DNA of 52,554 nucleotides. It comes from Wenjunlia tyrosinilytica (lineage in GTDB: Bacteria > Actinomycetota > Actinomycetes > Streptomycetales > Streptomycetaceae). The stretch covers positions 297 to 52,850 of the forward strand of contig NZ_BMMS01000040.1 of the NCBI RefSeq assembly GCF_014646055.1, written 5' to 3'. The notes under the pieces are model-generated. The model did no database searches and was not told the origin of the DNA. It worked only from the letters and a program-made list of their open reading frames with translations. Shown piece after piece: positions 29,364-48,566 of this stretch; the stretch's first letter is position 1; every line of letters begins with the position of its first letter. Position numbers and translations under genes: made by a program.

Positions 29364-30941
29364 TCATGCCAGGTAGGGCGTCCCGACGACAGGGCCAGAA
29401 GCGCTGCCACGCAGATCCGGTGCCAGGCGGGTCGAGCCTGCCACGAGTGAAGCGGTGAACTCGTGCCGCGGCGCGGTGAGCACCTGCTGTGCCGGTCCCT
29501 GCTCGATGAGCTCACCGGCGTCCAGTACGGCGATCCGCGCGGCAGTCGCTGCGGTGTCGAGGTCGTGGGTGATCAGGACCAGGGCCAGTTCGGGTCGGTC
29601 ACGCAGCAGGACGGCGAGCGTGTCCAGGAGGCCGCGTCGGGTAACCGTGTCGAGGCCGGAGGTGATCTCGTCGCAGATCAGCACCCTCGGCCGGGCGAGC
29701 AGGGCCCGGGCGAGCGCGGTCCGTTGGAGTTCGCCGCCGGACAGCCGGCCGGGCCTGCGCCGCACCAGCTCCTCCGTGAGGCCGAGGCCGGTCAGGGTGT
29801 TCAGGGCCTCGGCAAGAGCCTCTCGCGGGCCCGTTCCACGCAGCCGCACCGCCGTGCGTGCCACCTGGTCCAGGACCGGTCGGTGTTCGTCGAACGCGGC
29901 CTTCGCGTCCTGGAAGACGTACTGGACCGCGGCCAGTTGTTCACGAGTCCGGGCGCGCAGGCTGCGCGGGAGCGGGGTGCCGTCGAGCAGGACGTCGCCT
30001 GCGTAGTCCCGGTGGAGTCCGGCCAGACAGCGGGCGAGCGTGGTCTTTCCGCTGCCGGAGCGGCCGACGACGGCCAGGCACTCGCCGGCGCGGAGGGTGA
30101 GTTCGGGGATGCGCACCACCTCCTTGATACCGGCGCCGTCGCGGTGCCGCGCGGTGAGGCCACGTACCTGGAGTGCCGTGTGTCCTTCGCGCGTCGGCGG
30201 GCTGTCATACGTCTTCCCGTCCGCTGCCAGGAGTTCGGCGGTCCAGGGATGTCGCGGGGCGAGCCACAGTTGCTCCGCGGGAGCCGCCTCCACCACTTGG
30301 CCGCCGCGCATGACCAGAACCTCGTCGGCCAGGGCCCGGACGACGTCCAGGTCGTGGCTCAGCAGGACCACGGCGATGCCCTGCCGGGCGACCGCAGCCA
30401 GCTGGTCGACGATGCGCCGCTTCGTCAGCGCGTCCTGACCTGTGGTCGGCTCGTCCGCGACCACCACCCTGGCGCCGAGCAGCAGTGCCTGTGCCAGGAC
30501 GGCGCGCTGCTGCTGGCCACCCGAGAGCTGGTGCGGATAGCGCCGAAGCAGGGACTCGCCCTCCGGGAGCTGTGCGGCGGAGAGGGCGTGCAGGATACGC
30601 GTCCGGGCGGCAGCCCGGCGCTCGGGCCTGGGCAGGCTCCGCACCTGGTCGCGGGCGATGTCCCGCAGCAGTGCGCCGACCCGGCGTGCGGGGTTGAGGA
30701 CGGCGCCGGGGTGCTGGGGTACGTATCCCACGAGGCCGTTGGGTATGCGTACGTCGCCGGTCACTCGGGCGCCCGCCGGGTACTCGCCGAGCAGCGCGAG
30801 GCCGGTGGTCGTCTTGCCGCTGCCGGACGCGCCGACGAGTGCCGTGATTTTCCCGGGCCGGACCTGAAGGCTGACCCCGTCGACGATCGGCCGGCCGTCG
30901 ATCTCGACGTGAAGGTCCTTGATCTCAGCGACCGCGTTCAC
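29364..30941 (-). CDS. Dipeptide/nickel-type ABC transporter ATPase (two domains fused)
   Basis: GTG 30941 (GAGGAAG upstream) gives 525 residues with two ABC domains. Domain 1 has GASGSGKTTTG near 37, LSGGQQQR and VVVADEPTTG; domain 2 has GRSGSGKTTLA near 300, LSGGELQR and VLICDEITSG. This is a DppD-DppF type pair joined in one chain, powering import through the permeases encoded upstream. Its start overlaps the permease stop by GTGA. It is the last gene of the ten-gene operon. Inference: it drives uptake of the metal-loaded product of the pathway. Confidence 0.9.
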   Translation of the reverse strand: MNAVAEIKDLHVEIDGRPIVDGVSLQVRPGKITALVGASGSGKTTTGLALLGEYPAGARVTGDVRIPNGLVGYVPQHPGAVLNPARRVGALLRDIARDQVRSLPRPERRAAARTRILHALSAAQLPEGESLLRRYPHQLSGGQQQRAVLAQALLLGARVVVADEPTTGQDALTKRRIVDQLAAVARQGIAVVLLSHDLDVVRALADEVLVMRGGQVVEAAPAEQLWLAPRHPWTAELLAADGKTYDSPPTREGHTALQVRGLTARHRDGAGIKEVVRIPELTLRAGECLAVVGRSGSGKTTLARCLAGLHRDYAGDVLLDGTPLPRSLRARTREQLAAVQYVFQDAKAAFDEHRPVLDQVARTAVRLRGTGPREALAEALNTLTGLGLTEELVRRRPGRLSGGELQRTALARALLARPRVLICDEITSGLDTVTRRGLLDTLAVLLRDRPELALVLITHDLDTAATAARIAVLDAGELIEQGPAQQVLTAPRHEFTASLVAGSTRLAPDLRGSASGPVVGTPYLA

Positions 30942-31747
30942 GTCCGCTTCCTCCGTTGCAGTACCGCGTCGAAGAGCAGGTTGCTCCCCATGGTCAGGGC
31001 GACGATCAGCAGGGCAGGCACCACCACGGCCCAGGGCTGGACGAACAGCCCCGTACGGTTGCGGTCCACCATCACCGCCCAGTCGGCGGCGTCCGGCTCG
31101 ACGCCGACGCCGAGGAACGCCGCCGTGGCCACCAGGTAGAGCACACCTGTGAGCCGTACGCCCGCGTCGGCGGCGAGTGTGCGCGCGATCGACCTGCCGA
31201 CATAGCCGACGGCCATGCGCCACCACGTCTCTCCCTGCATACGCAGCGCCTCGACGGCCGGGCGAGAGGCCGCCTCGGCCGCGGCCGCCCGGACGATCCG
31301 CGCGGCGTCCGGGAAGTTGACCAGGGCCACCAGCAGTGAGAGGCCCACCGCCCCCGGCGAGAAGACGGCGGCCACCAGCAGGATCAACAGCAGCGACGGC
31401 ACGGCGAGCAGCACGTCCACGGGCCGCATCAGCAGCTCTTCGAGCCATGTCCGGTGGGTGAGCGCGCTGATGAGTCCGAGCGGCAGGGCCACCAGGTAGG
31501 CCAGAGCCGTCGCGGCCAGAGCGACGAGGACCACGGACTGCCCACCGAGCAGTACCTGCTGCCATACATCCCGGCCGACGAAGTCGGTGCCGAGCCAATG
31601 TCCGCCGCCGAGCGTGAAGGAGGGCGCTCGTGGCCCGGAGGACCCGCCCGCGAACAGCGGCCCGAGCAGCGCGAGGGCGAGCGGTACGGCAACGATCACC
31701 AGGCCTAGCGTGAAGCGTCCCGGCCGGATGCCTGCGAGCGTTTTCAT
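30938..31747 (-). CDS. Dipeptide/nickel-type ABC permease (DppC-like)
   Basis: ATG 31747 overlaps the preceding permease stop by ATGA. The product has 269 residues with about five to six membrane helices. HWLGTDFVGRDVWQQVLLGG is the characteristic DppC N-terminal signature, and the cytoplasmic loop ALRMQGETWWRMAVGYVGRS is the EAA-type coupling segment. It pairs with the 31744-32697 permease to form the channel. The dipeptide, opine and nickel members of this family cannot be told apart by sequence alone; the operon suggests a chelate or dipeptide. Confidence 0.9.
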   Translation of the reverse strand: MKTLAGIRPGRFTLGLVIVAVPLALALLGPLFAGGSSGPRAPSFTLGGGHWLGTDFVGRDVWQQVLLGGQSVVLVALAATALAYLVALPLGLISALTHRTWLEELLMRPVDVLLAVPSLLLILLVAAVFSPGAVGLSLLVALVNFPDAARIVRAAAAEAASRPAVEALRMQGETWWRMAVGYVGRSIARTLAADAGVRLTGVLYLVATAAFLGVGVEPDAADWAVMVDRNRTGLFVQPWAVVVPALLIVALTMGSNLLFDAVLQRRKRT

Positions 31748-32697
31748 GCCGCCACCCCCGCCCGGGGCGAGAAGCGGTGGACGACCAGGTCGGCGCCCAG
31801 ATTGAGGACGACGGCGGTCAGTCCGAAGACGACCGCGAGGCCCTGCACCACGGGAACGTCCCTTTCCGCGACAGCATTCATCAGCACCGTTCCCAGCCCG
31901 GGGATCACATACAGCGCCTCCACGACGATCACCCCGCACAGCAACCAGTCGATCGTCCGGGCGAGTTGCTGGGCGGCAGGCGCGATGGCGTTGGGCAGTG
32001 CATGCGCGTAACGGATGCGGGCGCCGGAGATTCCGTAGCGGCGGGCCTGGGCGACATACGGCGAAGCCAGCGCATCGATCATGCCGGCTCGCACCAGGCG
32101 GGCCAGTGAGCACACCGGCCGCGACAGTAGGACGAGGACGGGGAGGACCAGCGCCGCGGGGTGGGCGAGCAGATCGGTGCCGTAGCCGACGGCGGTCGGC
32201 GGCAGCCAGCCGAGACGCAGGGCGAACACGGTGATCAGCAGCACGCCGAAGGCGAATTCCGGGACCGCGTACACGCCGAGCGTCACCGAGCTGACGAGTC
32301 GGTCCGCGAGCCGGCCCTCGTGGCGGGCGGCCAGCACCCCGAGGCCGACCCCGGCCGGCACCAGCAGGCCCATTGTGAGCACGGCGAGCAGCACGGTCGG
32401 CCCGAAGCCGTCCGCGATGTACGAGCTGACGGGCCGCCCCGAGGCCAGGGACGTGCCGAAGTCGCCGTGCAGCAGCCCGGCCGCCCAGTCCGCCAGGCGT
32501 TCGTACGCCGGCCGGTCCAGGTGCAGCGCCTCGCGGATGGCCGTGATCCGCTCCGGGTCGGGCTGGTCGCCGGCGAGCGCCACGGCGGCGTCGCCCGGCA
32601 GCGCCTCGGTGAGGGCGAAGACGAGCAGCACGACGGCTGCCGTCTGCGCCACGCCGAGCAGCAGCCGCCGGGCGACCCAGGACCGTAGTCCGATCAC
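31744..32697 (-). CDS. Dipeptide/nickel-type ABC permease (DppB-like)
   Basis: The 317-residue protein starts MIGLRSWVARRLLLGVAQ with a membrane helix, then has PGDAAVALAGDQPDPERI and LHLDRPAYERLADWAAGLLH, GDFGTSL (the DppB signature region), and four to five further helices. The coupling loop is YVAQARRYGISGARIRYAHA. Stop and start codons overlap by four bases with both neighbours. It forms the inner membrane channel together with the DppC-like subunit. Confidence 0.9.
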   Translation of the reverse strand: MIGLRSWVARRLLLGVAQTAAVVLLVFALTEALPGDAAVALAGDQPDPERITAIREALHLDRPAYERLADWAAGLLHGDFGTSLASGRPVSSYIADGFGPTVLLAVLTMGLLVPAGVGLGVLAARHEGRLADRLVSSVTLGVYAVPEFAFGVLLITVFALRLGWLPPTAVGYGTDLLAHPAALVLPVLVLLSRPVCSLARLVRAGMIDALASPYVAQARRYGISGARIRYAHALPNAIAPAAQQLARTIDWLLCGVIVVEALYVIPGLGTVLMNAVAERDVPVVQGLAVVFGLTAVVLNLGADLVVHRFSPRAGVAA

Positions 32698-34286
32698 GCC
32701 AGCCAGACCTTGTCGAAGCGCGCCCAGTCGAGGGAGTTGGCGGGTGCCTTCTGCTCGACGCCCCGGACGCTGCGGGCGGTGCCGAGGATCCAGTCGGCGA
32801 AGCCCCAGATCAGGAAGCCGCCCTCGGCGTGCAGTCGGCGCTGCATGCGCTCGTAGACGGCGGCGCGGTCCTTTTTGTCCTTGGTGGACTGTGCCTGCTG
32901 GTACAGGGCGTCGAAGTTCTTGTGCCTCCAGTGAGTTGCGTTGGTGGTCGAACCGGTGAGCAGGCGCTGGGAGATGTGGGACTCGATGGGCATGGCGCCG
33001 GAGCGGTAGGAGGCCAGGGTCCCGGAGTCGAGGATGTCCTTCCAGTAGCTGTCCTTGCTGCCGGTTTTGATCTCGATTCTCACTCCGGCCTTGGCGGCCT
33101 GGTCGCGGAAGATCGCCGCGGCCTCGGTGAAGCCAGAGGCGACGGGTGAGGTGTCGAGGGTGACCTTGAGCTTCTCGGCGCCGGCCTCCTTCAGCAGCTT
33201 GCGGGCCCGGTCGAGGTCCTGTTCGCGCTGCGGCAGGCTGCCGGCGTAGTACTCGTAGCCCTTGCCGAACAGGTCGTTGCCGATCTCGCCCGCGCCGGAG
33301 AGGGCGCCGTCGACCAGTTCCTTGCGGTCGGCGATCAGGAAGAAGGCTTCGCGGACCCGCTTGTCGTCGAACGGCGGCCGGTCGGTCTTCATGACGAAGC
33401 CCTGCATGGCGCTGTTGCGGAGCCGGACGATCTGGATCTGCCCCTTGTTCTCGTGGGCGCGGGCGGTGGCGGGGTTGAGTTCGTGGGCGTACTCGACCTG
33501 CCCGCCGAGCAGGGCGTTGGCGCGTGCCGATTCCTCGTTGGCGACGACGAACTCCAGCTCGTCGAGGTAGGGAGCACCGTCCCAGTAGGCGTCGTTGCGC
33601 TTGAAGACGGCGGACTTGCCGGGCGCGAAGGACACAAAGCGGAACGGGCCGCTGCCGACCGGCTTCTTGTCGAAGTCCTGAGCGCCTGCGGGGACGATGT
33701 AGGCGCCGAACGCGGCGAGCACGTTGGGGAATTCGGCGGTCGGGCGCTTGAGGACGAACTCGATGGTGCGTTCGTCCAGAGCGCGGCTGGCCTTCAGGTC
33801 GATGGGCTCCAGCGAGGCCTTGGCCCGGAACGCCTTCGCCGGGTCGGCGATGCGGCGATAGCTGTAGAGGACGTCCTGGGCGGTTACCGGCTTGCCGTCG
33901 TGGAAGGCGGCCTTGCGCAGGGTGACCTTCCAGCGGTCCAGGCCCGCGTTCGGCTCCCAGGCCGAGGCGAGCCGGGGCTGTGCGGAGAGGTCGGGTCCGT
34001 AGTCGGCGAGCTTGTCGAAGAGGGCCTTGGCGCGGGCGGCATCGGCGAACAGGTTGGCCAGGTGCGGGTCGAGGGTCTCGCTCGCACCGCCACCGGCGAA
34101 GGCGGCGCGCAGCCGGCCGCCGCGCTTGGGCTTGCCGTCTGCCTTGGCGGGGTCGGCGGCGGTGCCGGAGCCGGCGCAGCCGGCGAGGGCGAGCGCGCCG
34201 AGTCCGGCCGCGCCTCCGGCTGCGGCGAGGAAGCCCCGGCGGCGCAGGCCGGGGAACCGGGAGTCGTTGACGGGGACGTGGTTCAT
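32694..34286 (-). CDS. Family 5 substrate-binding lipoprotein (peptide/nickel/opine type)
   Basis: The 530-residue product has RRRGFLAAAGG and then GALALAGC, a twin-arginine-like start with a lipobox, so it is probably a lipid-anchored extracellular receptor. The mature part has the SBP_bac_5 pattern (LASAWEPNAGLDRWKVTLRK, FHDGKPVTAQDVLYSYRRI, GSGPFRFVSF). Members bind dipeptides, opines or metal-chelates such as nickel-histidine. Its position between permeases and a chelator-type pathway suggests that it captures the metal complex the operon makes. Stop overlaps the permease start by four bases. Confidence 0.9.
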   Translation of the reverse strand: MNHVPVNDSRFPGLRRRGFLAAAGGAAGLGALALAGCAGSGTAADPAKADGKPKRGGRLRAAFAGGGASETLDPHLANLFADAARAKALFDKLADYGPDLSAQPRLASAWEPNAGLDRWKVTLRKAAFHDGKPVTAQDVLYSYRRIADPAKAFRAKASLEPIDLKASRALDERTIEFVLKRPTAEFPNVLAAFGAYIVPAGAQDFDKKPVGSGPFRFVSFAPGKSAVFKRNDAYWDGAPYLDELEFVVANEESARANALLGGQVEYAHELNPATARAHENKGQIQIVRLRNSAMQGFVMKTDRPPFDDKRVREAFFLIADRKELVDGALSGAGEIGNDLFGKGYEYYAGSLPQREQDLDRARKLLKEAGAEKLKVTLDTSPVASGFTEAAAIFRDQAAKAGVRIEIKTGSKDSYWKDILDSGTLASYRSGAMPIESHISQRLLTGSTTNATHWRHKNFDALYQQAQSTKDKKDRAAVYERMQRRLHAEGGFLIWGFADWILGTARSVRGVEQKAPANSLDWARFDKVWLA

Positions 34287-34343: not shown

Positions 34344-35135
34344 TCAGTGGGCGCGCGTGAGGCGGGCGACGAGATGGAGCCGGTCGGCATCGGCCGTAGC
34401 GCCCGGCAGGTCGCCCTCACGCCACGGCGGCTCCGTACGAGGACCGGGCCCGTCGTACAGGGCGAGCACCTCGAAGCCGTGCACGGCGAGGAGATGGCGC
34501 AGTTCCTGGGGGAAGACCAGCCGCCACGCGGAGCGCTGCTCGACGGGGGGCGAACCGTCGTCGGCGGTCCATACACGGGTGCGGCGCAGCAGTTGCGCGG
34601 CTCGGTCGACGCGCAGGGTGGTGGTGGACCGGTAGGTGATGCCCTGCCAGCTCAATTCGTTGACGGACGTGGTGTCGAGGAGTTCGGTACGGCCCAGGAA
34701 GAAGGCCCCGTTGCGCATCTCCGCGACGAGCAGTCCGCCGGGTGCCAGCGAGTTGCGGCAGGAGGTCAGGAAGCCGTCGAGTTCGTCGTTGGTGTGGCAG
34801 TACAGCAGGGCGCTGTCCAGGCATACCACGGCGTCGAAGGACCGTTCTGCGAGGTCGAATCCGCGCAGGTCTGCCCGGATGTACTCCGGACCGGGATGGT
34901 GCGCGCGAGCGTGCTCCAGCATCGCCTCGGACAGATCCGCGCCGACGACCGTACGGCCGGCCCCGTGCAGATACGCGGCGTCACGGCCGGTGCCGCAGCC
35001 GATGTCCAGGACCCGCGGACCGGCCCCGTACCGCCGCAGACAGTCCTCCGCCCAGCGCCCCGCCAGGCGTACCTCGTCGGGGAAACGGGCCTCGTACAGG
35101 ACCGGGTTGTCGGTCAGCAGGTTTGCGTTTCTCAT
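34344..35135 (-). CDS. SAM-dependent class I methyltransferase
   Basis: ATG 35135 has GAGGAGA upstream. The 263-residue protein has VLDIGCGTGRDAAYL (motif I), TVVGADLSEAMLEHA, and FDAVVCLDSALLY (post-I and motif II), followed by a C-terminal beta-rich domain (STTTLRVDRAAQLL, SAWRLVFPQELRHLL). It would methylate a small metabolite rather than nucleic acid or protein, judging by its length and domain composition. In the operon it stands between the exporter and the receptor gene, so N- or O-methylation of the chelator is a reasonable inference. It has a clear gap of 57 bases to the receptor gene. Confidence 0.85.
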   Translation of the reverse strand: MRNANLLTDNPVLYEARFPDEVRLAGRWAEDCLRRYGAGPRVLDIGCGTGRDAAYLHGAGRTVVGADLSEAMLEHARAHHPGPEYIRADLRGFDLAERSFDAVVCLDSALLYCHTNDELDGFLTSCRNSLAPGGLLVAEMRNGAFFLGRTELLDTTSVNELSWQGITYRSTTTLRVDRAAQLLRRTRVWTADDGSPPVEQRSAWRLVFPQELRHLLAVHGFEVLALYDGPGPRTEPPWREGDLPGATADADRLHLVARLTRAH

Positions 35136-35145
35136 CTCGGTCTCC

Positions 35146-36405
35146 TCACACCGGCACCGGTACGGGCGCCACGTGGGCGGGAAGCACTCGTCGGCGGTGC
35201 AGCCAAGCGACGCTGGCGGCCGAGGCGAGTCCGAAGGCCAGGCAGCATGCCCAGGGCAGCCACTGCGCCCCCGCGCGCTCACCGGCGTCCATCGACCAGC
35301 CGACAACTGTGTTGCCGACGGCCGCGGCGATGCCCGAGACCACGTAGAACAGCCCGAAGTACGTGCCGGTGAGCTCCGGCCGGCCGAAGCGGGGGATCAG
35401 CTCCATCACGAAGGGCTGGGCGATCATGGCGCCCAGGTAGAGCAGCAGCGCCCCGGCCAGGACAGGCAGCGCGCCGAGCACCGTGTTGCCGACACCGCCG
35501 TGCGCTGTCCCGGCCCCCGCCACCGTCATCGGCGGTATGAAGGCCAGCCCCATCAGCATGAGCCCCGCGCCGATCCATCTCGTCCGGGTGCCGCGGCTCT
35601 TCAGCGCCCGCGTGATGCGCAGTTGCAGCCAGAGGTTGGTGAGGGTGCCGACGAGGAAGACGATGCCGGCCGCGCCGTCCCAGCCGGTCGCCCGGCGCGC
35701 GCCGTCCGGCAGCAGCAGATACAGCTGGTTCTCCATGGTGAACATGCCGACCATGGCAATGGCGAACGCCACGAAGCCGCGGTTGCCGATCACCTCTCGC
35801 CAGTCCCCGAGGACGCTGTTCGCGGACGGAGTGACCTGGCGTGCCGGAAGGACCACGGCCTGGGCGATCGTGAGCACCGCGAAGATCCCGGCCGCGGTGA
35901 GCGCGGAGGCGCGGAAATCGACCATCAGCAGGGCGCTGCCGAGCAGCGGCCCTATCAGGGCGCCGGTGGTCGCGAAGACGTTGAACAGGGCGAATGCCTC
36001 GGCCTTGCGCTCCCCTGCCTCCTGGGCGAGATAGGCACGTATGGCCGGGTTGAACAGCGCCCCGGCCAGCCCGCTGAGTACGGACGCGGCCAGCAGCACC
36101 GTCAGTCCGTCGCCGAGGGCGAAGAGCCCGAAGCCGACGGTGCGCAGCGCGCATCCGGCGATGATGACCCCGCGCGCTCCCAGCCGGTCCGATGCCGATC
36201 CGCCGATGAGGAACAGGCCCTGCTGGCTGAGGTTGCGTACGCCGAGCACGATGCCGACGACAGCGGCCGACAGCCCGAGGTCCTCGCTCAGATGCACGGC
36301 GAGGTACGGGATGAGCAGGTAGAAGCCGGTGTTGACGCCAAGCTGGTTGACCAGGAGGAGCCGTATCGCGAGGGGGAAGCCGCGTATCTCGTGCCACGTC
36401 CTCAC
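35146..36405 (-). CDS. MFS transporter, probable exporter
   Basis: GTG 36405 overlaps the epimerase stop. The 419-residue protein has about twelve membrane helices: LAIRLLLVNQLGVNTGFYLL, GIVLGVRNLSQQGLF with GSASDRLGARGVI (the MFS loop 2-3 motif), and a second half with WIGAGLMLMGLAFI and YFGLFYVVSGIAAAVGN. MFS members of this type export small molecules, and metallophore operons usually carry one. Coupling to the biosynthetic genes supports export of the pathway product. Confidence 0.9.
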   Translation of the reverse strand: MRTWHEIRGFPLAIRLLLVNQLGVNTGFYLLIPYLAVHLSEDLGLSAAVVGIVLGVRNLSQQGLFLIGGSASDRLGARGVIIAGCALRTVGFGLFALGDGLTVLLAASVLSGLAGALFNPAIRAYLAQEAGERKAEAFALFNVFATTGALIGPLLGSALLMVDFRASALTAAGIFAVLTIAQAVVLPARQVTPSANSVLGDWREVIGNRGFVAFAIAMVGMFTMENQLYLLLPDGARRATGWDGAAGIVFLVGTLTNLWLQLRITRALKSRGTRTRWIGAGLMLMGLAFIPPMTVAGAGTAHGGVGNTVLGALPVLAGALLLYLGAMIAQPFVMELIPRFGRPELTGTYFGLFYVVSGIAAAVGNTVVGWSMDAGERAGAQWLPWACCLAFGLASAASVAWLHRRRVLPAHVAPVPVPV

Positions 36406-37457
36406 GCGCGTTCACCCTCCGCTTCGGTGCGCGGGCGCACGCCGAGGCCGGGGTGGCGGCTTACCCGTACGGTGCCGTCGGCGCCGCCGATGCCGGTCCA
36501 CGGGTCGTGGGCGAGCAGCAGATGCCCGTCGAGGTCGATCCACCGGGCTCGGTCGGCGAGATGGACGGCGGGGGCGATGCCGAGCGTGCTGGCGGTCAGA
36601 CAGCCGAGCATCAGCTCGGTGCCGGTGCCGGCGATCAGTTCGGCGATCCGCAGGGCCGCGGTGATGCCGCCGCACTTGGCGAGCTTGACGTTGATGCCCT
36701 GCACCCGCCCGGCGAGACGGCGGGCGTCCTCGAATCCGACCGCGTCCTCGTCGGCGATGACCGGCAGCGGCGAGCGTTCAGCGAGGCTCGCTAGCGCCTC
36801 GGGGTCGCCGGGTGCGATCGGCTGCTCCACGGCATCGATTCCCAGCTCCGCGAGGCGGGGCAGCAGCCTCTCCGTCGTGTCAACGGTCCAGGCTCCATTG
36901 GGGTCCAGGAGCAGCCGGGCGTGGGGAGCCGCAGCGCGCACTGCCCGCACGCGTTCCAGGTCGTCGGCGGGGTCCGGGGAACCGGCCTTGATCTTGAGGA
37001 CCGAGAAACCGGCCCGTACCAGGCGGGCGGCCTGGGCTTCGGCTTGCCTCGGCGACGTGATGCCGATGGTGCGGGCAGTCGGGGCGGAAGGCGCGACGGA
37101 GGCGCCGAGCAGTGCGTGGACGGGGATGCCTGCGCGCTTGCCCAAGAGATCGAGCAGAGCGGACTCGACGGCCGCGGTCACGGCTGGCGGAGAGCTCTCC
37201 CGGCCTCCGGTGCGCAGGGCCTCCAAGGCGCTCTCCGGTTCGGCGAAGCGTGCCAGCCACTGGGACTCCGAGTGCAGCAGTCGCCCGAGTGTGTCGGCAT
37301 CGAGGCCGTAGTACACGCTGGTGACAGCTTCTCCGCGGCCGAGCTGGCCTTCGTATTCGATGAACAGCCAGACGGCGTCGCGGGCCGCCATCGTCGAGCG
37401 GGATATGCGCAGCGGCTCGGTGAGTTCGAAGTGCACGGTGCGCTGACTGACCTTCAC
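36402..37457 (-). CDS. Enolase-superfamily dipeptide epimerase
   Basis: GTG 37457 overlaps the PLP enzyme stop. The 351-residue protein is of the muconate-lactonising/dipeptide-epimerase group: VLKIKAGSPD (KxK acid/base pair), LLLDPNGAW, AVEQPI and VIADEDA supply the three metal ligands, and INVKLAKCGG the second catalytic Lys. Near the end, WIDLDGHLLLAHDP has the Asp-x-Asp seen in dipeptide epimerases that bind the substrate amino group. It would epimerise one residue of a dipeptide. With the ATP-grasp ligase in the same operon, that implies a dipeptide intermediate. Specificity (e.g. Ala-Glu) cannot be read off. Confidence 0.85.
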   Translation of the reverse strand: MKVSQRTVHFELTEPLRISRSTMAARDAVWLFIEYEGQLGRGEAVTSVYYGLDADTLGRLLHSESQWLARFAEPESALEALRTGGRESSPPAVTAAVESALLDLLGKRAGIPVHALLGASVAPSAPTARTIGITSPRQAEAQAARLVRAGFSVLKIKAGSPDPADDLERVRAVRAAAPHARLLLDPNGAWTVDTTERLLPRLAELGIDAVEQPIAPGDPEALASLAERSPLPVIADEDAVGFEDARRLAGRVQGINVKLAKCGGITAALRIAELIAGTGTELMLGCLTASTLGIAPAVHLADRARWIDLDGHLLLAHDPWTGIGGADGTVRVSRHPGLGVRPRTEAEGERA

Positions 37458-38545
37458 GGGCTCTCTTCCAGACGTGGGGTTCGGCGCTCCAGCGGGTCGG
37501 TGACGGACCGGCAGCGGGCCCAGCCGGTGGCCTCCACGGCCCGCGGATGGGGGATCTCGACGGGTCGGGTGGCCACGGTGGCCGGGTCGAGCCCGTGGGC
37601 GGCGGCGAAGTCGTCGTCGTAGACGGTGCCGAGGTAGCGGTGCGGCCCGTCGGGGAAGACGGTGGCGACGACGGCTCCTGGGTGGACACGAGCGGCCCAG
37701 GCCGCCACAAGCGCTACGGCTCCGGTGCTCCAGCCGCCGCTGACGAAGTTGCCGACGGCCAGCCGTCGGCAGGCGTCCGCGGCCTCGGCCGGGCCGACCC
37801 AATGGACCTCGTCGAAGGCGTCGTAGGCGACGTTGCGCGGATGGATGCTGCTGCCCAGGCCGCGCATCAGACGCGGTCTGGCTGGCTGGCCGAAGATCGT
37901 CGAGCCGGTGGCGTCCACGCCGATCAGCCGGAGCCCGGGCCAGTGACGGCGCAGCGGTCCGACCACACCGGCGCTGTGGCCGCCGGTACCGACGCTGCAC
38001 ACCAGCACGTCCAGGTGGTCGAGCTGTACGGCCAGCTCGGCGGCGAGGGAGGCGTAACCGGCGATGTTGTCGGGGTTGTTGTACTGATCGGGCCAGTAGG
38101 CCTCCGGCAGCGATGTCAGCAGTTCGCGCAACCGGGCCAGCCGGGCGGCCTGCCATCCGCCCTCGGCCGCCGGGCGGTCGACCAGCTCCAGCCGGGCGCC
38201 GTATGCACGCAGCAGCTGTCGCATCGAGGGCTCCAGCTCCGTGTCGCCGACCAGCACGATCGGATGCCCCAGGGCCTGGCCGGCGAAGGCCAGCCCGATG
38301 CCGAGTGTTCCGGAGGTGGACTCCACCACCGGGGCACCGGGGCGCAGTTCGCCGCGCTCCTTGGCTCCGAGCAGCATGGAGACGGCTGCTCGCGCCTTCA
38401 TGCCGCCGACGCCGAGACCTTCCAGCTTGGCCCAGAAGCCGGGCTGCGGGCAGGGTAGATCGACGGTGACACGGGCGAGGGGTGTCCGGCCGAGCAGGGC
38501 GAGCAGCTCCCGGTTGCCCGCGGGGCTGAGGACGGCTGTGGTCAC
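37454..38545 (-). CDS. Cysteine-synthase-like PLP enzyme (SbnA-like)
   Basis: ATG 38545 overlaps the upstream stop by ATGA. The 363-residue protein has the fold-type II PLP domain: FWAKLEGLGVGGMKARAAVS, where the Lys is the likely Schiff base (usual cysteine synthases have KxEx-NPxGSxKDR), PVVESTSGTLGIGLAFAGQA (phosphate/substrate loop), CSVGTGGHSAGV (PLP phosphate loop). Relatives in siderophore pathways, such as SbnA, join an amino acid to phosphoserine-derived aminoacrylate to build a diamino acid. I infer that it makes an unusual amino acid for the ligase. The altered motif around Lys argues against housekeeping cysteine synthesis. Confidence 0.85.
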   Translation of the reverse strand: MTTAVLSPAGNRELLALLGRTPLARVTVDLPCPQPGFWAKLEGLGVGGMKARAAVSMLLGAKERGELRPGAPVVESTSGTLGIGLAFAGQALGHPIVLVGDTELEPSMRQLLRAYGARLELVDRPAAEGGWQAARLARLRELLTSLPEAYWPDQYNNPDNIAGYASLAAELAVQLDHLDVLVCSVGTGGHSAGVVGPLRRHWPGLRLIGVDATGSTIFGQPARPRLMRGLGSSIHPRNVAYDAFDEVHWVGPAEAADACRRLAVGNFVSGGWSTGAVALVAAWAARVHPGAVVATVFPDGPHRYLGTVYDDDFAAAHGLDPATVATRPVEIPHPRAVEATGWARCRSVTDPLERRTPRLEESP

Positions 38546-39393
38546 AGGGCGGCTCCGGAGCGCTCGCTGCCGCCGTAGCGGTGGACAACTCCGGGCCCGC
38601 CGTCGAGCCAGAAGAAGGGATACGGCTCGGCGGACACCGCGCTGACTCCGGCGCCGATGAGGCGCGGCAGCACCGCGCTGCCGGTCTGGGCGAACATCAC
38701 CAGCGGCTTGCCGTGCCGCAGTGCGTGCTCCCGCAACGGCTCGAAGCTGCCGTTGCCGAGTGTCATGCCCGAGGCGAGGATGGCGTCACAGCGTTCCAGT
38801 TCCGTGAGTGCGTCGGTGCGTACCGGCTCGCCCCACTCCGTTGTGCCGCCCTTGAGGTCGCAGGGTATGTACGCCAGACCGCGTTCGCGCAGCGCCTCCA
38901 GCAGCGAATTGACCACGCCGACGACGAGCACGGTGCCCCCCGGGGGGACATCGAGCAGACCGGTGACGGCCGCGGCTCTCGCCCGGGACTTCTCCAGTGA
39001 GCTCCCGGCGGGGAGCGGACACGGCCATGCGCCGCTCGCGGAACCATGGGGAAGCACGTGCATCAGGTAGGCGTCCAGTGCGGCCACCCGTACCGGCAGC
39101 AGTTCGTGCGCCAGCAGCTGGGCGATGTCCGCGCCGACGCAGTCGTCGACGGCGCTGTCGGGGAGCCCACCGGGCTCGACCGCGCACGAGCCCACGGCTT
39201 CGGCCAGGCGCAGGCTGAGCACTTCGTTCCGGTAGCCGCCGCTGCGCCCGGCATGCTGTACGGCCTGGCGCGTGGTGAACGCCACGGCGATCCGCTGGGT
39301 CTTCGGGTCGGGTCCGAAACCTCCGCGGAGTACGCGGTCGACGAGTTCGTCGTACGAGGCCGCGGTGATGTTCGTGTGGGTGATGGCGGTCAC
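38542..39393 (-). CDS. DUF364/DUF4213-like Rossmann-type protein
   Basis: I chose GTG 39393, giving 283 residues (VTAITHTNITAASYDELVDR). The C-terminal half has GGTVLVVGVVNSLLEALRER, CDLKGGTTEWGEPV, DAILASGMTLGNGSFEPLRE and GKPLVMFAQTGSAVLPRL, matching the DUF364 'heavy-metal chelation' family, which has a Rossmann-like fold of unknown reaction. The N-terminal part (TQRIAVAFTTRQAVQHAGR) fits the DUF4213 domain that usually precedes it. Its stop overlaps the PLP gene start. No enzymatic role is known; in this setting it may modify, sense or hold the metal or chelate. An IS110-family element lies directly upstream. Confidence 0.75.
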   Translation of the reverse strand: MTAITHTNITAASYDELVDRVLRGGFGPDPKTQRIAVAFTTRQAVQHAGRSGGYRNEVLSLRLAEAVGSCAVEPGGLPDSAVDDCVGADIAQLLAHELLPVRVAALDAYLMHVLPHGSASGAWPCPLPAGSSLEKSRARAAAVTGLLDVPPGGTVLVVGVVNSLLEALRERGLAYIPCDLKGGTTEWGEPVRTDALTELERCDAILASGMTLGNGSFEPLREHALRHGKPLVMFAQTGSAVLPRLIGAGVSAVSAEPYPFFWLDGGPGVVHRYGGSERSGAAL

Positions 39394-39419
39394 TGGTCCA
39401 CCATCCTTTCTACGGGCGC

Positions 39420-39626
39420 CAGTTGGGTGCTCGTGGTTAGATGCCGGTGAAAGCCGGGGTGACGGCCCGTGGCGGTCGCCTCGTGAGGGCCCCGATGACA
39501 CTGCCGCCCCCGGCTCTTCCGGAGCTGTCGACCGGCAACAGAGGCACGCGCCGCAGAGCGCCGGTCAGTGACCGCCCGGGAACCAGCTCCGTCACCGGCC
39601 TGTCGCTGATAGGCACGAGGAGAGCT
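39420..39626 (+). ncRNA. Candidate IS110 bridge RNA region
   Basis: This is the non-coding left end of the IS110 element. It is rich in possible stems (CCGGTGAAAGCCGG at 39443-39456; GGCGGTCGCC near 39472; GGGCCCC near 39487). IS110-group transposases are guided by a structured bridge RNA transcribed from this location. I cannot identify the target- and donor-binding loops by eye. Confidence 0.4.
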
Positions 39627-40871
39627 GTGGCACTGCCCGAGAGCGCGTACTACGTCGGGATCGACTGGGGATCGGCCGAGCACGCGGTGTGCGTCCTGAC
39701 CGAAGCCGGCCGCGTGAAGACCGAGTTCGCCGTCACCCACACCGCCGTCGGGTTCGCCGACCTGGTCCGCCGGCTCGCCAGGCTCGGCCAGGCCGAGAAC
39801 ATACCCGTGGCGATCGAACGGCCCGACGGACGGCTCGTCGACCAGTTGCTGGAGGCCGGCCATCCGGTGGTGCCGGTGAAGTCCAACGCCATCAAGGCAT
39901 GGCGGGACGCCGAGGTCCTGTCCGGCGCGAAGTCCGACCCCGGCGACGCCATGGTCATCGCCGAGTACCTGCGGCTGCGCCACCACAAGCTCAGCCCGGC
40001 CCGCCCGTTCACCCCGCAGACCAAGGCCCTGCGCACCGTGGTCCGCAGCCGCGACGACGTGGTGCGGCTGCGGGTCATGGCCACCAACATGCTCGGCTCG
40101 CTGCTGGACGCCTTCTGGCCCGGCGCCAAGGCGCTGTCCGCCGACGTGGAGTCGCCGATCGCCCTGGACTTCCTGACCCGTTACCCGACCCCGGCCTCCG
40201 CCGCCGCACTCGGTGAGAAACGCATGGCCGCGTTCTGCGTCAAGCACTCCTACTGCGGCCGGCGCAGCCCCGCCGACCTGGTCAAACGCCTGCGTTCGGC
40301 CCCTGCCGGCGTCACGGGCGAAGCCGAGACCGAGGCCGACCGTGACGCGGTCGTCGCGCTGGTCACGGTGCTGCGGACCCTCGGCACGGTGAAGAAGGAC
40401 CTCGACCGGTCCGTCGCCGCCCACCTCGGCCAGCATCCCGACGGACGGATCTTCACCTCGCTGCCGCGGGCCGGGCAGGTCAACGCCGCCCAGATCCTGG
40501 CCGAGTGGGGAGACTCCCGCACCGCCTACGACGGCCCGGACGCCGTCGCCGCGTTCGCCGGCGTCGCCCCGGTCACCAAGGCGTCCGGACGCATGCGCGG
40601 GGTGTCCTACCGCTGGGCCTGCAACAAACGCCTCCGCCAGGCGGTGACCACGTTCGCCGACAACAGCCGCCACGAAAGCACGTGGGCGGCGGACATCTAC
40701 CAGCGGGCCCGGGGCCGCGGCATGGACCACCCGCACGCCGTCCGCGTCCTGGCCCGCGCCTGGATACGTGTGATTCACCGCTGCTGGCTCGACCACGAGC
40801 CCTACCAGCCCGACCGGCACGGCGGACTTCAACGTCTCACAACCCCACCACCGAGGCTTCAGGCGGTGTGA
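39627..40871 (+). CDS. IS110-family transposase
   Basis: GTG 39627 after GAGGAGA gives 414 residues. The N-terminal DEDD domain has YYVGIDWGSAEHAV (Asp), PVAIERPDG (Glu) and SGAKSDPGDAMVIAEYLR (two Asp). The C-terminal domain has FTSLPRAGQVNAAQILAEWG, VAAFAGVAPVTKASG and WACNKRLRQAVTTFAD. The family uses a RuvC-like core plus a serine in the second domain and a bridge RNA. The gene is intact and may be active. It is antisense to the operon it sits in. Confidence 0.9.
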   Translation: MALPESAYYVGIDWGSAEHAVCVLTEAGRVKTEFAVTHTAVGFADLVRRLARLGQAENIPVAIERPDGRLVDQLLEAGHPVVPVKSNAIKAWRDAEVLSGAKSDPGDAMVIAEYLRLRHHKLSPARPFTPQTKALRTVVRSRDDVVRLRVMATNMLGSLLDAFWPGAKALSADVESPIALDFLTRYPTPASAAALGEKRMAAFCVKHSYCGRRSPADLVKRLRSAPAGVTGEAETEADRDAVVALVTVLRTLGTVKKDLDRSVAAHLGQHPDGRIFTSLPRAGQVNAAQILAEWGDSRTAYDGPDAVAAFAGVAPVTKASGRMRGVSYRWACNKRLRQAVTTFADNSRHESTWAADIYQRARGRGMDHPHAVRVLARAWIRVIHRCWLDHEPYQPDRHGGLQRLTTPPPRLQAV

Positions 40872-40888
40872 GGTTGACACAGGGGGTG

Positions 40889-42145
40889 TCATCGGCCGAC
40901 CACCTTCGGACAGAGTGCCGAGAGCAGGGTCTCGACCCGGTCGCGGGCCCCGAGGCCCTCGGCGTCGGCGGCCATGACGTGGCCCAGGTACTCGTTGTTG
41001 CTGCCCGCTGCCTTGACGACCTTGCCGGGCTCGGCAAGCTGGAGCTCCAGCAGGCCGGCTGCCGTGCGGACGTCGTCGGCGCCGTCGATGGCCTCGAGTA
41101 CTCCCCCGGTGTCCGGCACCAGGAATCCGATGGCGGCGCTGCGCAGGCCGGTGGCTCGTCGGCGCAGGTCCGGTTCGCGGCCGAGGGCCACGTCGACGCA
41201 GGCGGCGGCGAGGTCGATCCCCGTCACATGACGGATCAGTTCGGTGATGCGGTTACCGGCGGGGCGGGGGTTGACCTCGACCACCCGCGGGCCGTCGGCT
41301 GTCAGTTTGATCTCGGTGTGCGCCACGACCTCGTCCAGTCCGAGGGCCTTCAGTGCCTGAACTGCCGTCTCCGCAGCGGCCAGGGCGTCAGCGGCAGCGA
41401 GTGCCGCGGGGAACATGTGGCCGGTCTCGATGAAGGCCGGCGCCCCGCCGATGCTCTTGTCGGTCACCCCGACCACCTGCGCCGTTCCGGCGAACGACAC
41501 GGTCTCGACGCTGACTTCCGGCCCCCGGAGCAGCTCTTCGAGCAGGACCACGGGCTCGCGGCGCTGGCCTCGCGCGTTGACGGGGAAGTCCGCGAGCGCC
41601 CTGTAGGCGCGGGTCAGCTCCGACTCGTCGTCGACGCGTCGGACGAACATCCCGGCGCACAGGTCCACGGGCTTGAGCACCAGCGGGTAGCCGATCTCCC
41701 GCGCCGCGTCGGCGGCCTCGGCCCAGTCCGCGCAGACCGCGAAGCGCGGCCCCGGCACTGCGGCATCGGCCAGGACACGGCGGGTCGCGTCCTTGCGGCA
41801 GGCGTTCTCGACCGCTGCGGAGGAGGGGCCCGGCAGCCCCAGGCGTCCGGCGATCCGCGCGGCCGTCGGGAGGTAGTAGTCGCAGGAGGTGATCACCCCG
41901 TCGAAACCCAGTGCACCGTGGGCGCGCTCGACGAAGGGCAGCAACGCCTCGATGTCGTTGGTGTCGGCAGACAGCACGTTGTGTGCCGCGAGCAGCGGGT
42001 GCCCGGTGCCCTCAGGGGCGGAGCGCAGGTAGTGGTGCAGATCGCGGGTGAGGAAGGTGAACCCGTGCCCGCCCTCGCGGATCGCTCTTGGCAGCAGCCT
42101 GCTCATCGATCCGACCCAGCTCTCGACCAACAGTAGGTGGGCCAC
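40889..42145 (-). CDS. ATP-grasp amino acid ligase
   Basis: GTG 42145 follows AGAGGAAG. The 418-residue protein has the ATP-grasp core: CRKDATRRVLADAAVPGPRF, YPLVLKPVDLCAGMFVRRVD (ATP-binding Lys loop), PVVLLEELLRGPEVSVETVS, then HTEIKLTADGPRVVEVNPRPAGNRI with the metal-binding Glu/Asn. Such enzymes join carboxylates to amines via acyl phosphate, often forming dipeptides. As first gene of the operon, downstream of a Zur-like palindrome, it probably makes the chelator backbone. An IS110-family element starts just past its stop, so it is physically separated from the other nine genes. Confidence 0.9.
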   Translation of the reverse strand: MAHLLLVESWVGSMSRLLPRAIREGGHGFTFLTRDLHHYLRSAPEGTGHPLLAAHNVLSADTNDIEALLPFVERAHGALGFDGVITSCDYYLPTAARIAGRLGLPGPSSAAVENACRKDATRRVLADAAVPGPRFAVCADWAEAADAAREIGYPLVLKPVDLCAGMFVRRVDDESELTRAYRALADFPVNARGQRREPVVLLEELLRGPEVSVETVSFAGTAQVVGVTDKSIGGAPAFIETGHMFPAALAAADALAAAETAVQALKALGLDEVVAHTEIKLTADGPRVVEVNPRPAGNRITELIRHVTGIDLAAACVDVALGREPDLRRRATGLRSAAIGFLVPDTGGVLEAIDGADDVRTAAGLLELQLAEPGKVVKAAGSNNEYLGHVMAADAEGLGARDRVETLLSALCPKVVGR

Positions 42146-42236
42146 GGCTTCCTCTTCTCAGAACGCGGGTTGGATGCATGACGCGTTGGCGGCACCCGTC
42201 CGGGGATGGTCCGCCTTGACGCGGCCACACGTTATC

Positions 42237-42255
42237 GACAATCGTTTTCATTGTC
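42237..42255. promoter_or_regulatory. Zur-like palindrome, divergent promoter (box 1)
   Basis: GACAATCGTTTTCATTGTC is an imperfect palindrome with perfect outer arms (GACAAT/ATTGTC), in AT-rich DNA between the divergent ATP-grasp and hydrolase genes. On the minus strand it matches box 3 at 14 of 18 positions. It would let one zinc repressor control both directions. The stretch 42146-42291 has no gene. Confidence 0.7.
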
Positions 42256-42291
42256 ATCTGATCCAGTGTCGATTCTCTGAATGCGAGACCC

Positions 42292-43797
42292 GTGACTCCC
42301 GCTGTATGCCACCGGGGCGTGCTCTTCGCCCTCGTGGCCGCCGCCGCCCTGATCCCTGCCGCCCCGGTCCACGCCACCACCACCCCCGATCCATCTCTGC
42401 GTTTTCGTCCCTGCCCGGAGTCCATGCCGGTCCCGGCTGCCCCCGACCGGGTGGAGTGCGGATGGCTGAGCGTCCCGCTCGACCGGGAACACCCGGACGG
42501 CGAGCGCATCAGCATCGCCGTCTCGCGCGTACGCGCTTCGGGGCCACCCGAGGAGCGGCGCGGCATTCTGTTGGTGAACCCGGGCGGGCCTGGTGGCCCT
42601 GGGCTGGCGTACGCCGTCACCAAACGAGCCAAGCTGCCCGAGAGCGTGCGCCGCTCGTACGACGTCATCGGCTTCGACCCGCGCGGCACGGGACAGAGCG
42701 CGCCCGCGGACTGTGGCCCGATGGGCGGCCTTTTCGACAGCCCCGGAGCGGAGCCCGTACCGTCCGGCCACACCGCGGAAAAGGCGTACCTCGACTCATT
42801 GAGGCGTATGGCAGACGACTGCGCGGCCGGCGTCGGCGACGCGCTGGAGCATCTGTCGACCACTCAGACCGCCCGGGACGTGGACGCCATACGCTCCGCA
42901 CTCAGCGAACGGCGAATCGGCTTCCTGGGCGTCTCCTACGGCAGCTACCACGGCGCCGCCTATGCCGCCCTGTTCCCGCAGCACGTGGGGCGCATGGTGC
43001 TCGACAGCGTCGTCGGCCCCGGGGGGTGGTACGACTTCGACCTGAGGCAGAGCCGGGCATTGCTGCGCCAGCGCGAGGTGTTCTTCGCCTGGGTCGCGCA
43101 GTACGACAGGCGCTTCGGCCTCGGCGGCAGCACCGGTCAGGTCCGTTCCGCCTACAGGCGGGCGCGTCAAGGACTCGCAGCCCGCCCCGTGAACGGCTTC
43201 GGTCCTGCCGAGTTCGACCGTGCCGTGTACCGAGCGCTTGGCCGCACGGAACGCTGGGAGGGCCTCGCGGCAGGCATCCGTGCGTACCTGCACGACGGCA
43301 GCACCGAACTCCTGCGCCCCGCCGCTCCCTTCGGCGGCGCTGCGTCACGCACCTATGAGTCCGCGAACCGCGTCGTGAAGTGCGCGGACGGGCCCGGCCC
43401 CAAGCAGCGACGCGTCACGGCCGACCTCCGGCGAATGCGGCGACTCGACCCACAGCCGGTCGTCACCGGAATCGAAGCCTCGGCCTGCGCGTACTGGCAC
43501 CACATACCCGCCCACCGCACCCGGCTCGGCAGCCCCGAGGCGCCCCCGGTGCTGCTGATCGCCTCCGAACGCGACCCCATCACACCCGTCGAGGAAGCCC
43601 GGCAGCTACGGCAGCGGCTGCCCGGCTCGCGCCTGGTCACCCTCCACGACGACTACTCGCACGGCGTGTTCGCCAGCCGGGGCAACGCGTGCGTGGACAG
43701 CGCCGCCGCCGCGTACCTGGTCGACGGGACCGTCCCGGTGACGGATGTGCACTGCGACGGCCCCGGCCTGCCGACACCCCGAGTCCCCAACGAATGA
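42292..43797 (+). CDS. Secreted TAP-like alpha/beta hydrolase (peptidase)
   Basis: GTG 42292 begins a signal peptide (GVLFALVAAAALIPAAPVHA). The 501-residue product has ILLVNPGGPGGPGLAYA and YDVIGFDPRGTGQSA (oxyanion region), the nucleophile motif GFLGVSYGSYHG (Ser near 205), ASERDPITP (Asp) and DDYSHGVFAS (His), with a TAP-like C-terminal domain. Relatives are secreted tripeptidyl aminopeptidases. It starts 37 bases from the Zur-like box, so it is probably zinc-regulated. A role in releasing or recycling the peptide-like product or mobilising protein-bound zinc is inference. Confidence 0.85.
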   Translation: MTPAVCHRGVLFALVAAAALIPAAPVHATTTPDPSLRFRPCPESMPVPAAPDRVECGWLSVPLDREHPDGERISIAVSRVRASGPPEERRGILLVNPGGPGGPGLAYAVTKRAKLPESVRRSYDVIGFDPRGTGQSAPADCGPMGGLFDSPGAEPVPSGHTAEKAYLDSLRRMADDCAAGVGDALEHLSTTQTARDVDAIRSALSERRIGFLGVSYGSYHGAAYAALFPQHVGRMVLDSVVGPGGWYDFDLRQSRALLRQREVFFAWVAQYDRRFGLGGSTGQVRSAYRRARQGLAARPVNGFGPAEFDRAVYRALGRTERWEGLAAGIRAYLHDGSTELLRPAAPFGGAASRTYESANRVVKCADGPGPKQRRVTADLRRMRRLDPQPVVTGIEASACAYWHHIPAHRTRLGSPEAPPVLLIASERDPITPVEEARQLRQRLPGSRLVTLHDDYSHGVFASRGNACVDSAAAAYLVDGTVPVTDVHCDGPGLPTPRVPNE

Positions 43798-43822
43798 GTT
43801 CTCAGCGAAAAGGAGTTACGCG

Positions 43823-44386: not shown

Positions 44387-44402
44387 CGCAAAGCCTGCAT
44401 TA

Positions 44403-44420
44403 GAAATGGAATCCATTTTC
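44403..44420. promoter_or_regulatory. Zur-like palindrome upstream of rpmF (box 2)
   Basis: GAAATGGAATCCATTTTC differs at only two positions from box 3. Its core AAATGGA-A-TCCATTT is a perfect palindrome. It lies 40 bases upstream of the L32 start; TAGCGT shortly downstream may be the -10. Confidence 0.8.
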
Positions 44421-44461
44421 ATGTAGCGTCTGCGTCGCGCCGCCCAGAGAGGACCCGAACC

Positions 44462-44632
44462 ATGGCTGTACCCAAGCGGAAGATGTCCCGCAGCAACACC
44501 CGTCACCGCCGCGCTCAGTGGAAGGCGAGCACGCCGCAGCTCGTGCCGATCACGGTCGACGGCGTCGCCTATCTGGTGCCGCAGCGGCTGGCCAAGGCGT
44601 ACGAGCGCGGTCTGCTGCGCCCCGAAGGCTGA
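44462..44632 (+). CDS. rpmF: Ribosomal protein bL32, zinc-free form
   Basis: The 56-residue product begins [20 protein letters not shown], the L32 hallmark, but has no Cys at all, whereas the ordinary form holds zinc with four Cys. Such paralogues replace the zinc form during zinc starvation, freeing zinc. AGAGAGGA precedes the ATG. Downstream is the CobW-type GTPase at 44638. Promoter control by the palindrome at 44403 is expected. Confidence 0.92.
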
Positions 44633-44637
44633 CGGGC

Positions 44638-45807: not shown

Positions 45808-45811
45808 AGCC

Positions 45812-45856
45812 ACCGGGTTGGGCAGTGGTCGCAGCCACGGCACTGCCCAACCCGGT
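45812..45856 (+). terminator. Terminator after the CobW gene
   Basis: A perfect 16-base stem (ACCGGGTTGGGCAGTG and complement, 13-base loop) starts 5 bases past the stop. No long T-run, as is common in high-GC actinobacteria. Confidence 0.85.
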
Positions 45857-45992
45857 ACGCCCACCCGCCCTACGAGCGCGGTGAACCATGCCGGCTCGAC
45901 CGTGTGTCCGACGATGGCGAGCATCAGCCAATCTCCGGGATGAGCGCATCTCGCGGTTATCGTGATGCCTCTCTCAGACGACCGGAGCCGAC

Positions 45993-47794: not shown

Positions 47795-47902
47795 AGGCTC
47801 GTGACGCCCGCCCACACGGACAAGCGACCTGCGGCGACCACCTTCCGCGAGATCTGAACCGTGGCCGGACACGCCCTCATCCACTGCGAGCCGATGGGCT
47901 GG

Positions 47903-48538: not shown

Positions 48539-48566
48539 TTGGAAATGGAAACCATTGTCATATACT
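48539..48566. promoter_or_regulatory. Zur-like box 3 with leaderless rpmG promoter
   Basis: GAAATGGAAACCATTGTC (48542-48559) lies between TTGGAA (48539-48544, possible -35) and TATACT (48561-48566, -10). The rpmG ATG is only 7 bases after the -10, so the transcript should start at or next to the A of ATG, without a leader. Repressor on the palindrome would block both this and the divergent rpmB promoter. Confidence 0.8.

Follow-up and report, generated by a model that had tools for sequence, protein, structure and literature searches.

The closest described counterparts of the system reported here are two actinobacterial chelators, two staphylococcal metallophores and a group of enolase-superfamily enzymes. 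[S,S]-EDDS of Amycolatopsis japonicum is described as a zinc chelator whose genes are under the control of Zur. Ethylenediaminesuccinic acid hydroxyarginine (EDHA), which like the relatives discussed below comes from Streptomyces, is described as the product of an aminopolycarboxylate cluster without signature nonribosomal peptide synthetase (NRPS) genes that is missed by antiSMASH; in S. scabiei the cluster spans 11 kb (scab_5231-5311) and was reported to make a siderophore. These two are the strongest known candidates for comparison, by description rather than by gene lists. Staphylococcal systems share single components with our locus. Staphylococcus aureus SbnA makes 2-amino-2-carboxyethyl glutamate, which SbnB cuts to diaminopropionate in the staphyloferrin B module, while staphylopine involves export by a major facilitator superfamily (MFS) protein, a D-residue and an ATP-binding cassette (ABC) importer (CntABCDF). 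Dipeptide epimerases, in which a C-terminal Asp-x-Asp (DxD) motif holds the substrate ammonium, include the L-Ala-D/L-Glu epimerases. Here we analyze a stretch of 52,554 nucleotides from Wenjunlia tyrosinilytica (family Streptomycetaceae; NZ_BMMS01000040.1, positions 297 to 52,850; contig 40 of a genome of 8.49 Mb), hereafter called the window, in which ten consecutive genes, all with open reading frames, run on the minus strand from 42145 to 29364 (Table 1) and include a gene (gene 4) for a putative dipeptide epimerase.

We consider it fairly probable that this operon is a Zur-repressed, NRPS-free system for making, exporting and taking up again a small peptidic, carboxylate-rich zincophore, and a dipeptide epimerase shaping the zincophore scaffold is the best reading of gene 4 that its sequence and context allow. 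A first-pass annotation of this DNA had noted a dipeptide epimerase inside a metal-related operon at 36402-42145. The operon and its relation to metal are borne out, the metal being sharpened to zinc by a Zur-type box, but the operon extends to 29364, its putative control site lies at 42233-42256, and 39441-40871, inside the range, belongs to an IS110 element. The same annotation knew of no metallophore pathway with this type of enzyme, and we likewise found no paper mentioning both dipeptide epimerases and metallophores in the literature searched, the coverage of which leaves out most subscription papers.

The open reading frame at 36402-37457 of the minus strand is real, encodes 351 amino acids and is part of a longer open frame. 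Its product contains both enolase-superfamily domains (Pfam MR_MLE_C, 154.7 bits, and MR_MLE_N, 31.1 bits). The dipeptide-epimerase motifs KxK, KxxK and terminal DxD that had been attributed to it are present as K155-x-K157, K258-x-x-K261 and D308-x-D310, together with the metal ligands D185, E211 and D236. We followed these residues in 85 operon homologues, namely those of 80 Streptomyces loci (the best 80 of 207 confirmed in a scan of named genomes), the window, Rhodococcus and three more distant loci (L182, L192 and L193). K155, K157, D185, E211, D236, K258, D308 and D310 are invariant, and K261 is found in 83 of the 85. In the two remaining proteins (L102 and L193) this catalytic lysine is replaced by glutamate, and the enzymes may be dead or altered. 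Both by sequence and by predicted fold, the nearest Protein Data Bank (PDB) relatives are mostly dipeptide epimerases, some of them dipeptide-bound (top matches include 3iji/3ijq, 3rit, 3jva, 1jpm and 1jpd); the AlphaFold model used has a mean predicted local distance difference test (pLDDT) score of 73.7 and a poor C-terminus, with values below 50 at residues 288-299 and 311-351.

Gene 4 shares with L-Ala-D/L-Glu epimerases the fold, KxK, KxxK, the metal ligands and the terminal DxD, but is only ~27-35% identical to them in fold alignments, carries additional Arg and His residues, and lies in a biosynthetic rather than a recycling context. It also reads ADED where most reference rows read ADES, and the aspartate in place of this serine (D238) occurs in 84 of the 85 homologues. 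As its scores stay below the NCBIfam cut-offs for L-Ala-D/L-Glu epimerases (138 vs 343 bits and 129 vs 500 bits), we do not file it as an L-Ala-D/L-Glu epimerase. R17, R20, R26 and H312 are present in all 85 homologues and R129 in 84. An Arg is found at the position of R20 in YcjG, DgcA, 4gfi and a Deinococcus dipeptide epimerase, whereas R26, R129 and H312 are absent from the reference dipeptide epimerases and R17 is shared with 3rit only. These residues suggest a substrate with more carboxylates than L-Ala-Glu has.

Phylogenetic placement had been proposed as a check on this assignment, with muconate cycloisomerases (MLE) and o-succinylbenzoate synthases (OSBS) as the families to which the protein might belong instead. 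Our tree has 24 rows, of which four are long; 11 of its 21 inner branches are open and its deep order is unsure. The operon proteins and the Rhodococcus and pFRL2 homologues form one clade (97/97) without MLE or OSBS references. (The homologue of plasmid pFRL2, at L168 12001-13032, is 60% identical, and its gene has sulfotransferase and sugar-phosphate isomerase genes as neighbors.) A different clade (98/99) contains the two MLE rows and the Deinococcus OSBS/NAAAR row, and E. coli MenC stands outside on a long branch. Gene 4 thus groups with neither family; placement within MLE/OSBS is excluded on this tree, and that assignment was ruled out. Motifs and structural relatives support gene 4 as an enzyme of the dipeptide-epimerase type, and the tree sets it apart from MLE and OSBS; its dipeptide substrate and the resulting stereochemistry are putative. 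In this respect the earlier observation is confirmed and its interpretation partly supported.

The family model closest to gene 4 is DgcA, by name an N-acetyl-D-Glu racemase (228 bits, against 138 bits for the better of the two epimerase models), which has the same KxK, KxxK and DxD; since DgcA keeps the DxD, the motif alone is no proof of a dipeptide substrate. Gene 4 could therefore be a DgcA-like racemase of N-acyl or other N-substituted amino acids, giving a D-amino acid or inverting an SbnA-type adduct, still on the way to a zincophore. The Arg that R20 shares with DgcA, and the invariant or nearly invariant R17, R26, R129 and H312, as if the substrate had carboxylates beyond those of a plain dipeptide, would suit such an enzyme. 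Nevertheless, the protein misses the DgcA cut-off of 400 bits, and DgcA falls with 4gfi and E. coli YcjG into a third clade (99/100) apart from that of the operon. No DgcN partner occurs among the operon proteins, while dgcN adjoins DgcA genes elsewhere, and the operon includes no N-acetyltransferase gene, although 26 of 69 loci have a GNAT acetyltransferase gene ≤4 kb upstream. Finally, as detailed below, the epimerase gene appears and disappears jointly with that of the ligase. We regard this racemase as rather unlikely.

Peptidoglycan recycling, which the first-pass annotation took as the norm for such epimerases, is not the sole known context of the group, as DgcA genes adjoin dgcN (annotated as N-acetyltransferase). 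That gene 4 is a recycling or peptide-catabolism enzyme located in this operon by chance is a reading to which we give hardly any weight. Its characterized relatives do include L-Ala-D/L-Glu epimerases, and a Deinococcus relative adjoins an NlpC/P60 gene, but no NlpC/P60, amidase or murein gene, as present at those reference loci, was found among the operon proteins, and a recycling role was rejected on this ground. Overlapping genes and a fixed gene order also speak against chance. In the relatives, genes 1-5 overlap with median gaps of -4, -4, -4 and -17 bases (genes 1/2 counted in 77 loci). In 80/80 Streptomyces loci the first five genes are in fixed order, and in 75 of these the order covers all ten genes; the stretches of the other five end 1.2-4.4 kb past the epimerase gene. 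From this order and these overlaps, the ten-gene arrangement is more than chance. It extends to six distant loci, namely a Rhodococcus plasmid, two loci from elsewhere in the class, outside the family (L181 and L182), and three of divergent family members (L192-L194); five of them have all ten genes, and L181 lacks only a match to NikC. At E ≤ 1e-50 the epimerase was detected in 79 of 394 family genomes, belonging to 6 of 17 genera.

The relatives share a conserved site at a distance of 61-174 nt 5' of the projected start of the ATP-grasp gene. We compared 79 promoters, those of the window and of 78 relatives, two of the 80 loci having no usable upstream stretch. A Zur-type site was found in 79/79; it matches TGAAAATGATTATCG at 15 of 15 bases in 32 promoters, at 14 in 32, at 13 in nine (the window among them), at 12 in five and at 11 in one, while among 79 shuffled promoters 76 reached 7-9 bases and three 10-12. 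As this consensus was drawn from the same promoters, the match count is partly circular. A loose Zur consensus at one mismatch has 93 places per strand genome-wide vs 17 for a reversed control; being useless alone, it was replaced by a matrix, built from the operon sites of 77 relatives, excluding those of the window and of the closely similar L035. An exact pattern built from the relatives' sites has this operon as its sole match in the genome.

Over the 52.5-kb window, the matrix scores above zero at three places only: at the operon (46.3 bits), at 48540 (15.6 bits) and at 44404 (1.4 bits), the latter two having overlapping registers; the next-best place scores -3.6. The second and third places lie between the ribosomal L28 and L33 genes and 5' of a CobW gene, respectively, both 2-6 kb from the operon. 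Genes for L28, L31, L33, S14 and S18 and two CobW genes are found within 44.5-50.5 kb; L31, L33, S14 and S18 have no cysteine, L28 has one, and a second L33 gene exists in the genome. The Zur regulon of S. coelicolor, as tabulated in a review, lists such ribosomal-protein and CobW genes. The stretch 44518-50473, which also encodes an ArsP_1-type permease and a DUF1980 protein, is likely to be a zinc-starvation island. The zinc link of the operon thus has good comparative support, and from the box in 79/79 promoters and the matrix places at zinc-starvation genes we read the operon metal as zinc.

Other metals were considered. Iron control was ruled out, as the best iron-box matches are no better than those of shuffled sequences. 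A nickel (or cobalt) acquisition system would agree with the NikA, NikB, NikC, NikD and NikE models found among the NCBIfam matches of the importer, but all of these score below their curated cut-offs, the staphylopine CntD and CntF models score alongside, and the box likeness reaches zinc-starvation genes. We consider nickel highly improbable, although no search was made for a box of the nickel regulator (Nur), and the operon metal is probably zinc.

The matrix also scores in clusters beyond the operon family. Of 394 genomes of the class, 30 have a DUF364 match at E ≤ 1e-15, ten of these at E ≤ 1e-118 and 20 between ~1e-54 and 1e-77. Eight of those 20 regions and three plasmid clusters make up a sister set of 11 (L164, L165, L166 and L183-L190), all of which combine DUF364 with a cysteine-synthase-type pyridoxal phosphate (PLP) enzyme; two of these enzymes, when compared with gene 3, were 34% identical to it. 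A GHMP kinase occurs in 9/11, a methyltransferase match in 8/11, a FecCD-type permease in 8/11 and Nik-type genes in one (L186). Ten of the 11 clusters have matrix scores of 15.9 to 34.1, and in the six distant operons with type-1 DUF364 the best scores upstream of gene 1 are 38.3, 37.4, 27.4, 23.0, 13.4 and 9.3 (the last in Rhodococcus).

Neither ligase nor epimerase was detected in any of the 11 sister stretches (tblastn, E ≤ 1e-8). Among family genomes covered by both searches, the epimerase (E ≤ 1e-50) is present in 8/8 with type-1 DUF364 and 0/7 with type-2. The two genes thus seem to come and go together, and from their joint absence in the sister clusters the enzymes probably act together. 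Similar associations exist elsewhere: Streptomyces NBC_01006 has a fusion of an ATP-grasp ligase with an enolase domain (L175 8429-10699), in which KxxK reads KxxR, and on a Vibrio plasmid (L174 8778-11035) an enolase gene comes immediately after an ATP-grasp gene, in a cluster that also encodes citrate synthase and aconitase. An engineered pair of ATP-grasp enzyme and dipeptide epimerase is reported to yield L-Cys-D-Val in vitro, at ~80:20 (PMC13338154). We tentatively suggest, with somewhat less than even confidence, that these loci represent an unrecognized family of Zur-controlled, NRPS-free zincophore clusters with a core of DUF364 and an SbnA-like PLP enzyme, divided into one branch with ATP-grasp ligase and dipeptide epimerase, making an L,D-peptide chelator, and another with neither of the two and mostly with a GHMP kinase.

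The ATP-grasp ligase, which had already been noted in the operon, is of the L-amino-acid-ligase type, with BL00235 as its best PDB match and BacD next. The BacD and DdaF NCBIfam models also match it, below cut-off, and this, along with the MFS transporter and the peptide carriers known within the Opp/Nik family, would fit a dipeptide antimetabolite under zinc control, similar to bacilysin or dapdiamide, with the ABC system importing peptides and not a metal complex. Against such a product, the importer genes are present in 75/75 loci whose stretch reaches them, Zur-type boxes occur on the operon and on ten of the 11 sister clusters, and eight of the latter have the siderophore-type FecCD permease. 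We judge the antimetabolite improbable.

For the zincophore, the proteins suggest a pathway whose building blocks and order of steps are guesses. Falling zinc would release Zur from its box (42233-42256) and so allow transcription of the operon. The SbnA-like enzyme would then equip an amino acid with a 2-amino-2-carboxyethyl group derived from serine, and the resulting diamine would be a chelating one. The best PDB matches of gene 3 are the S. aureus SbnA structures 5d84-5d87; the alignment places Gly in gene 3 at a residue that is Ser in wild-type SbnA (5d84) and Gly in the variant 5d87, and which presumably matters for substrate choice. No SbnB match exists in this genome at E ≤ 1e-40, while SbnB is matched in 36 of 81 family genomes. 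The SbnA/SbnB route to diaminopropionate was therefore set aside, and in the absence of SbnB to cut it, the diamine adduct would be kept, as in aminopolycarboxylates. The ligase may link amino-acid units by an amide bond into a dipeptide; EDHA, too, contains a peptide link. This dipeptide would be inverted at its C-terminal residue by the epimerase to give an L,D product, with K157 and K261 as acid/base pair, D185, E211 and D236 holding the metal, and D308 and D310 holding the free amino end. DUF364 and the methyltransferase would tailor the product, which the MFS protein would export, and the Nik/Cnt-type ABC system would return its zinc complex. The importer belongs to the same ABC superfamily as CntABCDF; among the operon proteins scanned with Pfam and NCBIfam models there was no match to nicotianamine synthase or opine dehydrogenase of the opine route. 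The best fold match of gene 2 (Foldseek) is 3l5o, itself a DUF364 protein, and a DUF364 profile had no sequence match among solved structures, the likeness being one of fold. From a structure and genome neighborhoods, DUF364 proteins have been proposed to act in metal-chelator synthesis (PMC2954201).

Besides the DgcA likeness of gene 4, several observations weigh against this proposal. On the window sequence alone the box is weak, and the argument for zinc draws on conservation and the matrix: the site has nine of the 11 specified bases of the published S. coelicolor Zur motif (tGaNNatSatNNtCa), the commonest form in the relatives having ten, nine other places in the window do equally well, and a site as close to TGAAAATGATTATC turns up in 25 of 100 shuffled windows. 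The box is missing from sister cluster L188 (-5.2 in the matrix), and that of the Rhodococcus operon is weak (9.3 bits). The reference dipeptide epimerases are scattered over several clades and open forks of the tree, and the 98/99 clade with the MLE rows also contains 1jpm, 3jva, 3rit, the Bacillus badius enzyme and a haloarchaeal one, so that the tree alone gives gene 4 no place among dipeptide epimerases. The pFRL2 homologue belongs to a different cluster, without an annotated ligase within 12 kb. DUF364 has no known reaction, and the NCBIfam models matching the transporter genes are named for nickel, opines or peptides and all stay below cut-off (for gene 10, NikD, CntF and CntD).

The state of the operon in this particular strain also counts against it. 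In L035, which represents the empty site, the ATP-grasp stop and the DUF364 start share ATGA, and in the window the IS110 element occupies exactly this junction. The element is, on this comparison, an insertion foreign to the ancestral operon. It splits gene 1 from the rest and leaves DUF364 with a GTG start at the junction and an extra 1.5 kb from the Zur-type box; expression of genes 2-10 is uncertain, and the pathway may be weakened or abolished here. The new GTG start and an AAAGGA stretch resembling a ribosome site are supplied by the IS110 end.

If the proposal is correct, DUF364 would gain a role, and a testable function, in zinc-chelator synthesis, and dipeptide epimerases would move from wall recycling into metallophore biosynthesis. 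About one in five family genomes (79/394) would carry an undescribed NRPS-free route to a zinc chelator through a ligase and a stand-alone dipeptide epimerase, for which the combination of Zur-type box, DUF364 and SbnA-like enzyme would provide a genome-mining handle. The ligase/epimerase pairing, reported in 2026 as engineered for penicillin precursors (PMC13338154), would then be a natural one here.

Table 1. Features of the operon and of related control sites in the window.
Feature	Coordinates	Strand	Basis or remark
Zur-type box TGACAATGAAAACGATTGTCGATA	42233..42256	-	~105 nt 5' of ATP-grasp start
Gene 1, ATP-grasp ligase, L-amino-acid-ligase type	40889..42145	-	Pfam ATP-grasp_4 + LAL_C2; PDB best match BL00235
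IS110-family transposase, between genes 1 and 2	39441..40871	+	Pfam DEDD_Tnp_IS110
Gene 2, DUF364 protein, 283 amino acids	38542..39393	-	Pfam PF04016, 27.5 bits; Foldseek best match 3l5o
Gene 3, SbnA-like PLP enzyme	37454..38545	-	TIGR03945, 240 bits (cut-off 350); PDB SbnA 5d84-5d87
Gene 4, dipeptide-epimerase-type enolase-superfamily protein, 351 amino acids	36402..37457	-	Pfam, PDB, tree, motifs
Gene 5, MFS transporter, likely exporter	35146..36405	-	Pfam MFS_1
Gene 6, class I S-adenosylmethionine (SAM) methyltransferase	34344..35306	-	Pfam Methyltransf_25; open reading frame limits, true start uncertain
Gene 7, ABC substrate-binding protein, Nik/Opp type	32694..34286	-	Pfam SBP_bac_5; NCBIfam nickel/peptide/opine models below cut-off
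Gene 8, ABC permease, NikB-like	31744..32697	-	NCBIfam, below cut-off
Gene 9, ABC permease, NikC-like	30938..32113	-	NCBIfam, below cut-off; open reading frame limits, true start further in
Gene 10, fused double ABC ATPase, NikDE/CntDF-like	29364..31598	-	Pfam ABC_tran x2; open reading frame limits, true start further in
Zur-type box 5' of CobW gene	44398..44427	.	Matrix rank 3, 1.4 bits; outside operon
Zur-type box between ribosomal L28 and L33 genes	48540..48563	+	Matrix rank 2, 15.6 bits; outside operon

In addition to the GNAT gene mentioned above, 39 of 69 loci have a TAP-like hydrolase gene ≤4 kb away and divergent from the operon; the stretches concerned in the window are 42292-43797 and 43745-44386. 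With the Zur-type box located between the hydrolase and ligase genes, it may serve both.

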